Shown: positions 6,753-53,239 of the stretch, piece by piece | Layout: each line of letters starts with the position of its first letter | How positions within the stretch are numbered: the stretch's first letter is position 1 | Notes under the pieces: model-generated | The model's input: only the letters and a program-made list of their open reading frames with translations | Database searches by the model: none | Told to the model about the DNA's origin: nothing | Program-made: the position numbers and the translations under genes | Assembly (NCBI RefSeq): GCF_009763255.1 | Contig: NZ_WSJB01000018.1 | Coordinates: 62,001-126,000 of the forward strand | Source of the DNA: Bordetella sp. 02P26C-1 | GTDB lineage: Bacteria; Pseudomonadota; Gammaproteobacteria; Burkholderiales; Burkholderiaceae_B | Direction of reading: 5' to 3' | DNA: 64,000 bases

Positions 6753-6875
6753 ACACCGAGCACGGCTTGGACGCTTTTAAATGCCACACTCGAGGCCTGC
6801 GAAGACGCGGCATTGAGTGTCGAACACGAATCACCTGACGCAATACCGATCACATCACTTTTGGAGCAGCACCCC

Positions 6876-7646
6876 ATGTCCGCCTCTCAATCACTCGTCA
6901 TCGATCTCAACTGCGATATGGGCGAGAGCTATGGCGCTTGGCATATGGGCAATGACATTGCCGTACTGCCTTTCGTCAGTTCGGCTAACGTGGCCTGTGG
7001 GTACCACGCGGGCGATCCCTCGACGATGCGCAAGACCGTGGCGGCAGCCATCGAACATAAGGTGGCGGTAGGCGCTCACCCTAGCCTGCCGGATCTGGTT
7101 GGCTTTGGTCGTCGCACCATGCAGATCACGCCGCAAGAAGCCTACGATATGGTGGTCTGTCAGATCGGAGCGCTCGCCGCGGTGGCTGCTACACAGGGGG
7201 CACGCTTGCATCATGTGAAGGCGCATGGGGCACTATACAACATGGCTGCTAAAGACCGTGCCTTGTCGGATGCCATCTGCCGTGCGGTTCGCGATGTTGA
7301 CGCCAGTCTTGTTCTGTATGGTCTGGCGGGTAGCCAGCTGATTGCGGCTGCTCAGGACCTGGGCCTGCGTGCGGCGAGCGAGGTATTCGCGGATCGCTCG
7401 TATCAGGATGATGGATCGCTGACGCCGCGCAGCCAGCCTGGGGCCATGATCGAAGACGTGGACACCGCTATCGCCCAGGTACTGAACATGGTGCAGAATC
7501 GCGTCGTTCGCTCGGTCAACGGCCGTGATGTGGCCGTGCAGGCGGATACGCTTTGCATTCACGGGGATCAGCCTAATGCGTTGGTGTTTGCCCGGGCGTT
7601 GCGGGAGGCGCTTAGCAAGGCGGGGATTGAGGTTCGTGCGGTTTGA
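6876..7646 (+). CDS. pxpA: 5-oxoprolinase subunit PxpA (LamB/YcsF family)
   Basis: A 256-residue LamB/YcsF-family protein, the third 5-oxoprolinase subunit. Family signatures are IDLNCDMGES at the N terminus, VSSANVACGYHAGDP, VAVGAHPSLPDL, HHVKAHGALYN and CIHGDQPNA. I start at ATG 6876, which has GGAGCA at 6863-6868 upstream; an in-frame TTG at 6813 would add 21 residues with no family similarity. A 123-nt gap separates it from pxpC, so it may also have its own promoter. A structured repeat begins 102 nt after its stop. Confidence 0.94.
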   Translation: MSASQSLVIDLNCDMGESYGAWHMGNDIAVLPFVSSANVACGYHAGDPSTMRKTVAAAIEHKVAVGAHPSLPDLVGFGRRTMQITPQEAYDMVVCQIGALAAVAATQGARLHHVKAHGALYNMAAKDRALSDAICRAVRDVDASLVLYGLAGSQLIAAAQDLGLRAASEVFADRSYQDDGSLTPRSQPGAMIEDVDTAIAQVLNMVQNRVVRSVNGRDVAVQADTLCIHGDQPNALVFARALREALSKAGIEVRAV

Positions 7647-7748
7647 ACTGAACGCTATCGGTCGTTGTGAATTACGCCGAGCTTGGCGTCATGCTGGGTG
7701 GGTTTGAGTTTTTTTGGCCGTTGTTGCGGCACTGGATTACTTCTGGAC

Positions 7749-8042
7749 GTCGCTGTGGGGCAGTGGCCGCGTTGGGGCTTCACGTGGCCGGTCGGCCGCC
7801 TGCGCGTCCGACATCGCTTCGCTCACCTCGTCCGGCCCGTTCGGGCCTACCTACGGTGTCCGCTCGCTCGGCCACGAGGCGCCCCAACGCGGCCACTGCC
7901 CCACAGCGACTCGCATTGTCTTCAGTCGTGACTTTGCTGGGACGGGTTTCGCTTGTAGGCTTCGTAGGCGCAGCCGTGCTCAGGGACAAAGATCTTGCGG
8001 GGCCGCTATTACCGGGCGCCTACGGGCGCGCCCGGTAATAGC
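7749..8042 (+). repeat. Structured repeat element, copy A
   Basis: A 294-nt element of nested inverted repeats. The outer stem P1 is a perfect 30-bp pair, 7749-7778 with 7881-7910. Inside is a 4x4 internal loop (TTCA 7779-7782, AGGC 7877-7880), then stem P2 of 8 bp (CGTGGCCG 7783-7790, CGGCCACG 7869-7876). Two small hairpins sit within: P3 (GTCGG 7791-7795 with CCGAC 7808-7812) and P4 (7834-7847, loop GTTC). A 94-nt linker ending in GATCTTGCGGGGCC leads to P5, a perfect 15-bp hairpin, 8005-8019 with 8028-8042. Copy B at 8304-8591 has the same architecture in the opposite orientation. Weaker similarity continues upstream to about 7711. I do not recognise the family. Open frames across it look like by-products of its GC-rich sequence. 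Confidence 0.85.
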
Positions 8043-8303
8043 ATTCGGTCCGGGAGGAGCGGGCCGGCAGCCGGGGGGTGAAGTGAGGCTAAATGGACAA
8101 ATGACGCAGCCGTGTGAACGGCTACGGTGAGCTTCGCAAATCGGATCTGTAGCCACTCACGGCGCGCGCGCCACGTTACGGCTGGCTCACACTTGGCAAA
8201 TCAAGCATTAAAGAAAGCAGGCCACAAATGACGCTGCCCCTGCTACCACACTCGATCCGCCCATTCCAAATGAAACCCACCTTGAACGACAACCTGCCCG
8301 ATC
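8043..8303. other. Intergenic spacer between the two repeat copies
   Basis: This is the 261-nt spacer separating the terminal hairpins of the two inverted copies. The only local structure I see is a short 6-bp hairpin with a GTGA loop (AGCCGT 8108-8113, ACGGCT 8118-8123). No credible coding frame, promoter or terminator is visible. It does not resemble either flanking element. Confidence 0.6.
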
Positions 8304-8591
8304 GCTAAAACGGGGCGCGCAGGGCGCCCCGTTTTAGCAGCCCCGCAAAGTCCTTCATAGCGAAACCACGCCGGCAAAAATGCCAAGCAAACCACCCTCC
8401 CCGCCAACGCCGCGAACCCGAGCTAACGCCAGTCGGCGCGGGGTGCGCGGGCGGTTGGGGCGCCTCGAGGTCGAGCGAGCGGAAGTCGAAGGGAGCGCGA
8501 AGGCGCGGACGAGACGAGCGACGCGGTGTCCGGCGCCCGCGCGCCGGACCGACCTCGTGAAGCCCCAACCGCCCGCGCACCCCGCGCCGAC
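8304..8591 (-). repeat. Structured repeat element, copy B (inverted relative to copy A)
   Basis: A 288-nt copy of the element at 7749-8042, read on the minus strand. P1 is a perfect 30-bp stem, 8562-8591 with 8432-8461. The TTCA/AGGC internal loop is identical (8558-8561 and 8462-8465). P2 is 8 bp (8550-8557 with 8466-8473), P3 is 9 bp (8541-8549 with 8528-8536) and P4 is 4 bp (8503-8506 with 8495-8498). After a 93-nt linker containing TTTGCGGGGCT comes P5, a perfect 15-bp hairpin (8324-8338 with 8304-8318). Compared with copy A, 12 positions of P1, 2 of P2 and 3 of P5 differ, always with the matching change on the other arm. It begins 92 nt after the stop of the minus-strand oxidase gene. 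Confidence 0.85.
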
Positions 8592-8683
8592 GACCAAAAG
8601 CACGCAACCGCAACCGGCGACCTAATAGGCCCCCCACACACGACGCCCCGCCAGGCCACCAGCCAAGCGGGCAAGCAGGCAAG

Positions 8684-11600
8684 CTAGACAAGCACCCGCT
8701 CAATCCCACCCGCATTAGCCCGCTGCACATACTCCTGCATCCACTGCTCACCCAGGATATGCCGCGCCATCTCAACAACGATGTAGTCAGCCTCCATAGC
8801 CGTATCACCCTCATACCGCGACAGTCCTTGCAAGCAAGACGGGCAAGACGTCAGCACCTTCACCTCGCCGGTATAGCCATCCTTGCGCACCGCTTTCTGA
8901 TTCTTCTGCAGCTCTTCCTGCTTACGGAATCGAACCTGCGTCGACACATCCGGACGCGTCACCGCCAGCGTGCCTGACTCGCCGCAACAACGATCCGTCT
9001 TGATCGCGCCCTCGCCCACGAGCGAACGCACGGTCTTCATCGGGTCCTGCAGCTTCATCGGCGTATGGCAGGGATCGTGATACACGTAGCGCGCACCAGT
9101 CACCCCATCGAGCTTGATGCCTTTTTCCAGCAGATATTCGTGAATGTCGATCAACCGGCAACCCGGGAAGATCTTCTCGAATTCATAACCGGCCAGCTGG
9201 TCATAACACGTGCCGCAGCTCACCACCACGGTCTTGATGTCCAGATAGTTCAGCGTGTTCGCCACACGGTGGAACAGCACCCGGTTATCCGTGATGATCT
9301 GCTCGGCCTTGTCCGTCATGCCATTGCCGCGTTGCGGGTAACCGCAGCACAGATAGCCCGGCGGCAATACCGTCTGCACACCCGCATGCCACAACATCGC
9401 CTGCGTGGCGAGCCCCACCTGCGAGAACAAACGCTCTGATCCGCAACCGGGGAAATAGAACACCGCCTCCGTATCCGCCGAGGTCGTCTTCGGATCGCGG
9501 ATGATGGGTACGTAGTTCGCGTCCTCGATATCCAGCAGCTTGCGCGCGCTTTGCTTGGGCAGACCGCCTGGCATCTTCTTGTTGACGAAGTGCACAATCT
9601 GCTCACGCATCGGCGGCTTGCCGACCGTGGCCGGCGGATGCGCAGTCTGCTTGCGAGCAAACGACGACAGCAAATCGTTGGCCATGCGCTGCGCCTTATA
9701 GCCCACGCCCACCATCGCCTTGCGCGTCGCGTTAATCGTCGCCGGGTCCTTGGCGTTCAAGAAGAACATCGCAGCCGCGGTGCCCGGATTGAACGACTTG
9801 CGCCCCATCTTGCGCAACACCGCGCGCATGTTCATCGACACATCGCCGAAATCGATATCCACCGGGCACGGGTTGTAGCATTTGTGGCAGACCGTGCAGT
9901 GGTCGGCCACGTCTTCGAACTCTTCCCAATGCTTCAGGCTCACGCCACGGCGGGTCTGTTCCTCGTACAGGAAAGCCTCGATCAGCAACGAGGTCGCGAG
10001 GATCTTATTGCGCGGCGAATACAGCAGATTCGCGCGCGGCACATGGGTGGCACAGACCGGCTTGCATTTACCGCAACGCAAGCAGTCCTTGATCGATTCC
10101 GAAATCGCCCCGATATCGCTTTGCTGCATGATGAGCGATTCATGGCCCATCAAGCCAAAGCTCGGCGTCCACGCATGGCGCAAATCCGCGCCCGGCATGA
10201 GTTTGCCGGCGTTGAAATGCCCGTTCGGATCGACGCGGCGCTTGTATTCCTGGAACGGGGCGAGCTCCGCCTCGGTCAGGAATTCGTACTTCGTCAAGCC
10301 AATACCATGCTCACCCGAAATCACCCCATCCAGATCGCGCGCGATCTGCATGATGCGGTCCACCGCCTGGTGGGCCTCGGTGAGCATTTCGTAGTCGTCG
10401 GAGTTGACCGGGATATTGGTGTGAACGTTGCCGTCGCCCGCGTGCATGTGCAGCGCGACAAAGACGCGGCCCTTCAACACACGGGCGTGGATGGCACGGA
10501 GCTCATCGACGATGTGCTTGCCCGTCGCGCCGGCGAACACCTGCTGTAGCTGCGCGAGCACTTCGGTCTTCCACGACACGCGTATGGTGTGGTCCTGCAC
10601 CACATCGAACACGCGCGCATCCGGCTGCGCGGCCACGCGATCGGCCAACGCGCCTTGCAGCGAAGTGAGCCCCAGCCCAGCCAGATCCGGCAGCGCCTGA
10701 CGCAGCGGCATATCCAGATTGTCCAGCAGCCATTGCCAACGACGGCGCACCGTCGTCAATAGCATTAAGGCGTGCTGCGTACGCTCGGCCAGCGTCTCGC
10801 TGCGCGTCAGCTCGTCGTCTTCGTCCTCGGCCTTGCCCACGGGCAGCGGCTCGGACAAATAAGCCTCCAGCGCATTGAGCAGCTTGAGCTTGTTGCGCGT
10901 GGACAGCTCGATATTGATGCGTTCGATGTGGTCCGTGTACTCGCCCATGCGCGACAGCGGAATCACCACGTCTTCATTGATCTTGAAGGCGTTGGTGTGA
11001 CGCGCGATGGCGGCCGTGCGCGAGCGGTCCAGCCAGAATTTCTTGCGGGCTTCGGCGCTCACGGCCACGAAGCCTTCGCCGTGACGCGTGTTGGCCAGAC
11101 GCACGACCTCGCTGGCCGCCACGGCCACCGCGTCCTCGTCATCGCCCACGATATCGCCAATCAGCACCATCTTGGGCAAGGTGCCGCGCTTGCTCTTGGT
11201 CGCATAGCCGACGGCACGCAGATAGCGTTCGTCCAGGTGCTCCAGACCCGCGAGAATCGCGCCACGCTCACGGCCTTCGCCGTCGAGGTAGTTCTTCACC
11301 TCGACGATCGACGGAATCGCATCACGTGCCTGGCCAAAGAACTCCATACACACGGTGCGCGTATGGCGCGGCATGCGATGCAACACCCAGCGAGCCGAGG
11401 TGATCAGGCCGTCGCAGCCCTCTTTCTGCACACCCGGCAGACCGGCGAGGAACTTGTCGGTCACATCTTTGCCCAGGCCTTCCTTGCGGAACACACGACC
11501 GGCGATTTCCAGCGTCTCGGTCTTGAGCAACTTTTCGCCCGGCTTGGCCGCGCCGTCGAACCATTTCAGTTCAAAGCGCGCGACATCGACGTCGTGGATC

Positions 11601-12643
11601 TTGCCCAGATTGTGTTCGAGACGGGTGACTTCCAGCCAGTTGCCGTCCGGATCGACCATGCGCCACCAGGCGAGGTTATCCAGCGCGGTACCCCACAGCA
11701 CGGCTTTCTTGCCGCCCGCGTTCATGGCGATATTGCCGCCCACACAGGAGGCTTCGGCCGAGGTCGGGTCCACGGCGAATACGTAGCCGGCCTGCTCGGC
11801 GGCCTCGGACACGCGCTTGGTGACCACACCGGCGCCGGCATAAATCACGGCGGCAGGTTCGGTCAGGCCCGGCAAAATACAGGTTTCGACCGCGCCTAGC
11901 GTGTCGAATTTCTCGGTATTGATGACGGCCGACTTCCAGGTCAGCGGAATCGCGCCACCCGTGTAGCCGGTACCGCCGCCACGCGGCACAATTGTCAGGC
12001 CCAGCTCGATACAGCCGCGCACCAGCGCCGCGATTTCCAATTCGCTATCCGGCGTCAGCACGACAAACGGATATTCCACCCGCCAGTCGGTCGCGTCCGT
12101 GACGTGCGACACACGCGACAAGCCGTCGAACTTGATGTTGTCCTTGGCGGTGATGCGGCCCAGAACCTTTTGCACCTGCTTGCGCAGATGGGCGGTCTGG
12201 TCGAATTCGCTCTCGAATGCCGCGATGGCCGAGCGCGCGCGCGCCAGCAACTCGACGACCTTGTGGTCGCGCTCCGGGTCGTGCCCCGGCTCGGTGGGCG
12301 AATTCGGCTCGCGACGCTTGTCGATTTCGGCCAGACGGTGATGGAGGGCCTCGATCAGCAGCTTGCGGCGCTTGGGATTTTCCAGCAGGTCGTCCTGCAG
12401 GTACGGATTGCGCCGCACCACCCAGATATCGCCCAGGACTTCGTACAACATCCGCGCGGATCGGCCCGTGCGGCGTTCGCCACGCAGGTCGCTCACCCAT
12501 TGCCAAGCGTCTTCGCCCAGCAGGCGGCCGACGATTTCACGATCGGAGAACGAGGTGTAGTTGTACGGAATTTCGCGCAGACGCGCGTTGGCAGCAGGCG
12601 AGAGCGCCTCGGCAAGGATCTGACTGGGGAGAGGGGCGTTCAT
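8684..12643 (-). CDS. Large FAD-linked oxidase with DUF3683, GlcD-like and GlcF-like Fe-S modules
   Basis: A 1319-residue fusion protein. An N-terminal DUF3683-type region (about 1-190) precedes a PCMH-type FAD-binding domain with [15 protein letters not shown] (about residue 214) and a FAD-oxidase C-terminal domain ending in [11 protein letters not shown] (about 778). Next are two 4Fe-4S motifs, C854/C857/C860/C864 and C916/C919/C922/C926, then two CCG domains ([10 protein letters not shown] and [14 protein letters not shown]). This is the glycolate or D-lactate dehydrogenase plan with the GlcD- and GlcF-like parts fused. The family suggests oxidation of a D-2-hydroxyacid with electrons passed to the respiratory chain; the substrate cannot be told from sequence. 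It appears to be monocistronic, with repeat copy B downstream. Confidence 0.9.
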
Positions 12644-53163: not shown

Positions 53164-53197
53164 ATATTAAAGCAGGCTGACCGGAATTGGTACGGCA

Positions 53198-53230
53198 GAC
53201 AGTGCGCGGGCGCGTCGCCCGCGCACTGTC
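53198..53230 (-). other. Strong hairpin directly after the ilvD stop codon
   Basis: A 14-bp perfect stem (53198-53211 with 53217-53230) and a 5-nt loop, 9 nt beyond the ilvD stop. It has no U-tract on the minus strand, so it may protect the 3' end or pause polymerase before the U-rich terminator further down. Confidence 0.6.
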
Positions 53231-53239
53231 TTCAGGCGA

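Follow-up and report, generated by a model that had tools for sequence, protein, structure and literature searches.

In the window, which is the whole 64,000-nt stretch of DNA from Bordetella sp. 02P26C-1 analysed here, positions 7749-8591 hold a composite of ~843 bp in which two modules of ~290 nt face inward. We consider this composite to be probably a non-autonomous mobile DNA element of the Bordetella group and related genera, with stems that are kept paired at the DNA level. The structure is most likely a mobile DNA element and not an undescribed RNA, and its interest lies chiefly in strong covariation that shows none of the marks left by selection on a gene-sense RNA.

Copy 1 lies on the forward strand and is bounded, outside P1, by a left end motif of the TTCTGGAC type (7735-7748), a conserved boundary with a fuzzy outer edge; in 60 modules of B. 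genomosp. 4 (genome G002), information content climbs from about -14, with a weaker G-rich stretch reaching to about -22. The hairpin module (7749-7910) is closed by P1 (7749-7778/7881-7910) and encloses the 8-bp P2 (7783-7790/7869-7876) and the inner hairpins P3 (7791-7812) and P4 (7834-7847), and is followed by a 94-nt linker (7911-8004) and the P5 hairpin (8005-8042; 15 bp, 8-nt loop), with ATTCGG next. A spacer (8043-8303) separates the two modules. Copy 2 has the same parts on the reverse strand, i.e. the P5 hairpin (8304-8338; 15 bp, 5-nt loop), a 93-nt linker (8339-8431), the hairpin module (8432-8591) with P1 (8562-8591/8432-8461), the 8-bp P2 (8550-8557/8466-8473), P3 (8528-8549) and P4 (8495-8506), and outside P1 a right end motif of the TTTTGGTC type (8592-8605). 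A T-like shape, P1 with P3 and P4 inside it, stands at both ends of the composite.

The arms are complementary throughout in each copy (P1 30/30, P2 8/8, P5 15/15), and between the copies 12 of 30, 2 of 8 and 3 of 15 pairs differ in P1, P2 and P5, respectively, each difference being present on both arms. A previous sequence-only reading had described the two copies with their coordinates, stem lengths and linkers of 93-94 nt, as well as 17 stem differences compensated on both arms with both copies perfect, and all of this proved exact upon re-count. When 7500-8800 was shuffled 200 times with dinucleotides preserved, perfect inverted repeats grew to 12 bp at most, and hence the perfect stems in the window are not due to chance. 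Apart from the four perfect inverted repeats of the element, the whole window holds one other of ≥15 bp (loop up to 110), a separate 16-bp repeat at 53197-53231.

Comparison of copy 1 with its own genome by blastn gave 11 matches, including the query itself and self-matches of the arms, and comparison with 41 genomes gave matches in at least 12, its own included. Alignment A1 was composed of 47 modules from nine genomes, with most G002 copies and all G013 modules left out, and a covariance model was built from these 47 modules. With this model all nine genomes of the genus were positive, with 5 to 91 matches each among the matches listed, the 91 being those of B. genomosp. 4. Counting the window's own genome, at least 39 of 200 family genomes, spread over 15 of 43 genera, were also positive, as were at least 3 of 399 genomes of the order, all three from this family and the window's own among them; these counts are lower bounds, as the family and order scans used stricter filters and scored the best ≤14 and ≤7 candidates per genome, respectively. 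Further copies with pairing kept are thus present in related genomes. The detected modules number 207 and measure about 103-225 nt (search bounds 95-225), mostly 152-164 nt, and their stems have about 30 bp; the set excludes 43 duplicate arm pairs as well as modules whose orientation was unclear or whose motif score was <2. A short form without P4 is found in several of the genus genomes, and G013 has a form of 200 nt. Some draft contigs end inside or just past a module, e.g. C14, C15 and C17 of G002 and C33 of G000. Hence, several Bordetella draft assemblies are broken at this mobile repeat, and the copy numbers are probably underestimates.

Adjacent modules ≤2.5 kb apart form 68 pairs, 66 of which are arranged + then - (one locus, fetched twice as L062/L167, is counted twice among them). 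The other two are + then +, with a weakly scored second member, and none is - then + or - then -; one - then + case (L145) is found among low-score discards. Median pair length is 811 nt (range 439-1253, 63 pairs). In G002, members of family A (seven compared) and family B (four) align across both modules and the spacer, the latter with indels, while further out than about 14 nt from P1 the flanks are no longer related. Three family-A sites, L059, L067 and L061, were looked up in eight other genus genomes and were empty in seven, seven and four of them, respectively, with empty orthologous gaps of 12-267 nt overall. For L059, the seven genomes fetched have no module (gaps 12-116 nt), G003 being left out as its two flanks lie apart; for L067, seven of the eight have none (47-267 nt), and in G000 the flanks were not both found. 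For L061, modules are absent from G007, G005, G008 and G006 (13-180 nt), G001 carries a Y1 transposase gene with other REPs, short modules of the element family occupy the site in G003 and G004, and G000 has no listed flank match. Because whole composites occur with unrelated flanks and the three sites are empty in other genus genomes, the element moves as a unit. The whole composite is one mobile DNA unit, not two independent elements, so that the two copies, previously taken as separate elements, are rather the two ends of one composite between convergent genes.

No target-site duplication was found in 64 pairs, in which the longest flank repeat averaged 4.06, compared with 3.91 after shuffling of partners. 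Nor did a transposase of the element, an autonomous copy or a parent IS come to light, PF01797 being the one transposase family searched for. Carriage by a plasmid or phage was rejected, since blastn of the window composite and one G215 composite returned no match. In the wide pairs L254 (2.2 kb) and L127 (1.7 kb), there is no called gene between the modules and no convincing ORF by eye. The gene-free stretch of L254 (2148-4042; G002, C21) contains several TGTTTCACGTGGAACA sites, which we take to resemble parS.

Convergent genes flank 54 of the 66 pairs (53 of 65 without the doubled locus), compared with 28 of 365 other adjacent gene pairs at the same loci; the remaining pairs are divergent (4), tandem (7) or without a right gene (1). 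Genes were called by a home-made codon-usage caller, automatic and uncurated, which replaced a cruder first caller that accepted short antisense ORFs and by which 39 of 63 pairs with two called flanks were convergent. Single modules (n = 75) are in sense with the outer gene in 60 cases and antisense in 13, and two have no neighbour. From stop codon to P1 the median distance is 53 nt (IQR 36-94). Alternatively, the convergent bias could be due to purifying selection against insertion elsewhere.

In the window, the upstream gene is pxpA (LamB/YcsF family; ORF at 6813-7646, forward strand; PF03746, E 7.8e-104), with its stop codon 102 nt from P1 of copy 1, and the downstream gene encodes an FAD/Fe-S oxidoreductase (DUF3683) of 1319 aa (8684-12643, reverse strand), with its stop codon 92 nt from P1 of copy 2. 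The two genes are convergent, and each module is in sense with its outer gene. Across 80 named loci with orthologues of the oxidoreductase gene, a module stands beside the gene (E ≤ 0.01) in two, a family-B composite in B. genomosp. 4 and a single 136-nt match in Eoetvoesiella caeni; in B. petrii MY10 and Bordetella sp. BOR01, the same genes form the convergent site and the element is absent. In Bordetella ansorpii (L155), a CRISPR-like repeat (GTGTTCCCCGCGTGTGCGGGGATGAACCG) occurs in two copies shortly downstream of the oxidoreductase gene.

Pairing in the stems was analysed in A1, in which 46 pairs give 2150 cells, 94.9% of them standard pairs. Changes on both sides were found in 480 cells, whereas shuffles gave a mean of 130 and none of 500 was as high, and the signal collapsed when the pairing was slid by 1-3 columns. 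The claim of the sequence-only reading that the structure is maintained is therefore upheld over 47 modules; its choice between selection and arm conversion, and between RNA and cruciform DNA, can be narrowed, as the mismatches and the two-arm changes, which lack the transition bias of one-arm mutations, favour copying at the DNA level. On the gene-sense strand of A1, G-U/U-G occupies 12 of the 2150 cells and A.C/C.A 27. Alignment-free arm counts over 5906 P1 cells gave 82 A.C, 19 G.T and 48 other independent one-arm mismatches, A.C outnumbering G.T in every one of the 13 genome groups, and P5 of 51 modules showed 742 Watson-Crick pairs, 8 A.C, no G.T and 3 other. In three G002 clusters, all pairs predicted by RNAfold include 61 A.C and 62 G.T; as these are symmetric overall, the A.C excess belongs to P1 and P5 and not to every predicted pair. 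Changes that could be polarised were G>A 16 and T>C 9 versus C>T 6 and A>G 1 (a further 117 mismatches were left unpolarised for want of a close relative). Mutation bias as the source of the A.C excess was rejected, since the three G002 clusters lack a comparable strand bias at their unpaired positions (G>A 13/528, C>T 38/1392, T>C 28/1396, A>G 23/626). Selection on a gene-sense RNA predicts the opposite pattern of mismatches, and thus near-absent G-U together with the A.C excess argues against it.

One-arm mismatches in P1 are mostly transitions (101 of 149). Distinct two-arm changes between closest modules, the stricter count, comprise 12 transitions and 17 transversions, and a looser set of 276 module pairs, which are non-independent, gave 541 and 1178. 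Compensation through wobble steps does not give transversion-rich two-arm changes; these are better, though not perfectly, explained if one arm is rewritten from the other. Judged from these sequence patterns, strict DNA complementarity with arm-to-arm copying is most likely. Simple conversion is not the whole story, because the transition bias of ordinary mutations is missing from the two-arm changes, and the excess of A.C over G.T is beyond conversion alone. Conversion in patches is weakly supported, because compensated differences are only mildly clustered (412 adjacent versus 330 expected). In our reading, the asymmetry in P1 and P5 reflects a further, weaker constraint that acts on the outward strand, as RNA or single-stranded DNA, since A.C on the gene-sense strand is G.T/G-U on the other strand, which reads from P5 to P1 outward.

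Compensatory base changes are normally taken as proof of a functional RNA. Here, abundant covariation exists almost without G-U intermediates and with the wrong mismatch favoured, and the same signal seemingly arises from DNA copying, which calls for caution in covariation-based RNA discovery. Moreover, with dozens of copies in a single genome, the element is a natural system for the mutual correction of palindrome arms.

In our model, two ~290-nt modules that face inward, with a short spacer between them, make up the element, which in the window covers 7749-8591 plus about 14 bp per end, and it inserts as a unit, in most cases where two genes converge. Movement would come from an enzyme acting in trans, which probably recognises the ends in folded form. 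As the pattern of stem changes suggests, when one arm changes, the other would be rewritten from it by template switching or conversion in the hairpin, and such rewriting would generate new stem sequences while pairing stays Watson-Crick. The resident element might perhaps also isolate converging genes from each other's transcripts.

Among known systems, REP, BIME and REPIN sequences are close to the element. In the accessible part of PMC3733652, they are described as paired inverted palindromes, intergenic, near convergent 3′ ends, in many copies and of several types, with REP units of 20-40 bp, stems of 5-13 bp and a GTAG or CGTC tag, GTAG REPs being associated with tyrosine transposases. 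The element resembles them in its inverted pairs at gene 3′ ends, which are inward and mostly convergent; unlike REPs and REPINs, it has ~160-nt modules, 30-bp stems, inner hairpins, a linker and P5, no unpaired tag was identified in it, and neither its size nor its relation to transposases agrees with theirs. MITEs of the Correia/NEMIS type are short elements with inverted ends, a target duplication and a parent IS. The pairs of about 0.4-1.3 kb, the inverted ends and the insertion as a unit at unrelated sites are MITE-like, whereas the lack of target duplication is not, nor are inverted ends that are ~300-nt structured modules differing in sequence from each other. In integron attC sites and parvovirus terminal repeats, the fold is kept while the stem sequence drifts, and the latter have T-shaped palindromic ends; the likeness of our element to them would be one of shape alone. 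The element is thus MITE/BIME-like in architecture and fits no tested family.

The sequence-only reading had recognised no named family. No Rfam family reaches its gathering score within the window, permissive matches in 7600-8750 being far below, and to this extent the statement stands; whether the element is undescribed is uncertain, because a literature search that included few subscription journals gave one possible prior sighting, the intergenic structured stem-loop families Bor-1 (117 nt) and Bor-2 (167 nt) of B. bronchiseptica (PMC2267715). The short module is a 109-nt hairpin in 25 of 32 cases, or 117 nt with 4 flanking bases on each side, and the long module has about 160 nt (model 167), lengths close to those of Bor-1 and Bor-2, respectively. 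Judging from length and intergenic location, Bor-1 and Bor-2 may be earlier sightings (2008) of the modules, and composite order, mobility, convergent location and arm behaviour do not appear in the accessible part of their description. The BRE repeat of Bordetella, according to the accessible part of PMC3110155, is 75-91 bp long, tandem, mostly intergenic and also present in Comamonadaceae; our element is likewise mostly intergenic in Bordetella and unlike BRE in module size and inverted order.

Possible, at rather low probability, and compatible with mobility, is that the element acts as a bidirectional insulator, in which a read-through transcript from either gene would fold the far module and be released by Rho in a C/A-rich tract ahead of the opposite gene. 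The convergent location and the short distance from stop codon to P1 agree with such a role. Moreover, the stretch from stop codon to element is G/T-rich on the gene-sense strand, with a GC skew of +0.415 (n = 141) versus -0.006 in controls (n = 231), so that the antisense strand is C-rich and G-poor, and T-tract terminators are rare, being found in 8 of 165 trailers beside the element and in 17 of 165 module-plus-spacer regions. However, control genes also seldom have T-tract terminators (11 of 266). The skew, furthermore, is centred on the element, falling from +0.57 at -14 to -24 to +0.19 at -124 to -164, and beside genes that lie in another orientation than in sense it is as strong or stronger (n = 28; +0.70 at -14 to -24); hence, it is tied to the element and not to gene ends. 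The skew is already present at G002 modules (+0.71, n = 58), many of which belong to recently spread families, and the empty sites in other species indicate that the element is dispensable there. The skew may stem from target choice, from filler made at insertion or from later mutation. A role as intrinsic terminator was rejected, because the T-tract scan shows no clear difference from controls.

It is unlikely that a structured RNA, read outward from the spacer through P5 and then P1, antisense to the flanking genes and ending in a C/A-rich tail of Rho type, is what selection maintains. On that strand the P1 mismatches become G-U 82 versus A.C 19, consistently over the 13 genome groups, the polarised changes lean the same way while unpaired positions do not, and the region beyond P1 is C/A-rich. 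Nevertheless, G-U is still rare among the 5906 P1 cells, no sigma-70 consensus promoter was found in 7500-8800, Rfam provides no match, and two-arm changes are rich in transversions, for which there is no wobble intermediate.

For integron attC sites and IS200/IS605 ends, the substrate of the mover is a folded single strand. By analogy, one DNA strand folded from P5 to P1 could be the substrate here, with selection on the fold keeping the stems paired; the strand-specific tolerance of G.T mismatches, the T-shaped P1 with P3 and P4 at both ends and the lack of target duplication point in this direction, whereas we regard it as doubtful because the Y1 tyrosine transposase domain PF01797, present in six of nine genus genomes, is absent from G002, with its 91 listed matches, G000 and G004, and in the four loci inspected out of six its genes are flanked by a different REP. 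Mobilisation by RAYT was accordingly rejected for G002, G000 and G004. At L314-L317 (G001, G008, G005 and G006), Y1/RAYT-type genes are flanked by classical GGTGTC-GACACC REPs, distinct from the element; one Y1/RAYT-type gene fills the L061-orthologous gap in G001, and several empty gaps at family-A sites contain classical REPs.

Only tentatively, we further consider hairpin-primed movement, in which T-shaped ends like terminal repeats would have their 30-bp stems rewritten by fold-back copying, one strand would be recognised in folded form, and G/T-rich flanks would be left behind; we know of no bacterial miniature element that moves in this way.

As a minor observation, a stretch of about 18 G, a (GTTA)n-like run and a doubled end motif lie right at element boundaries (L261, L264 and L269), which suggests slippage or filler synthesis at the ends.
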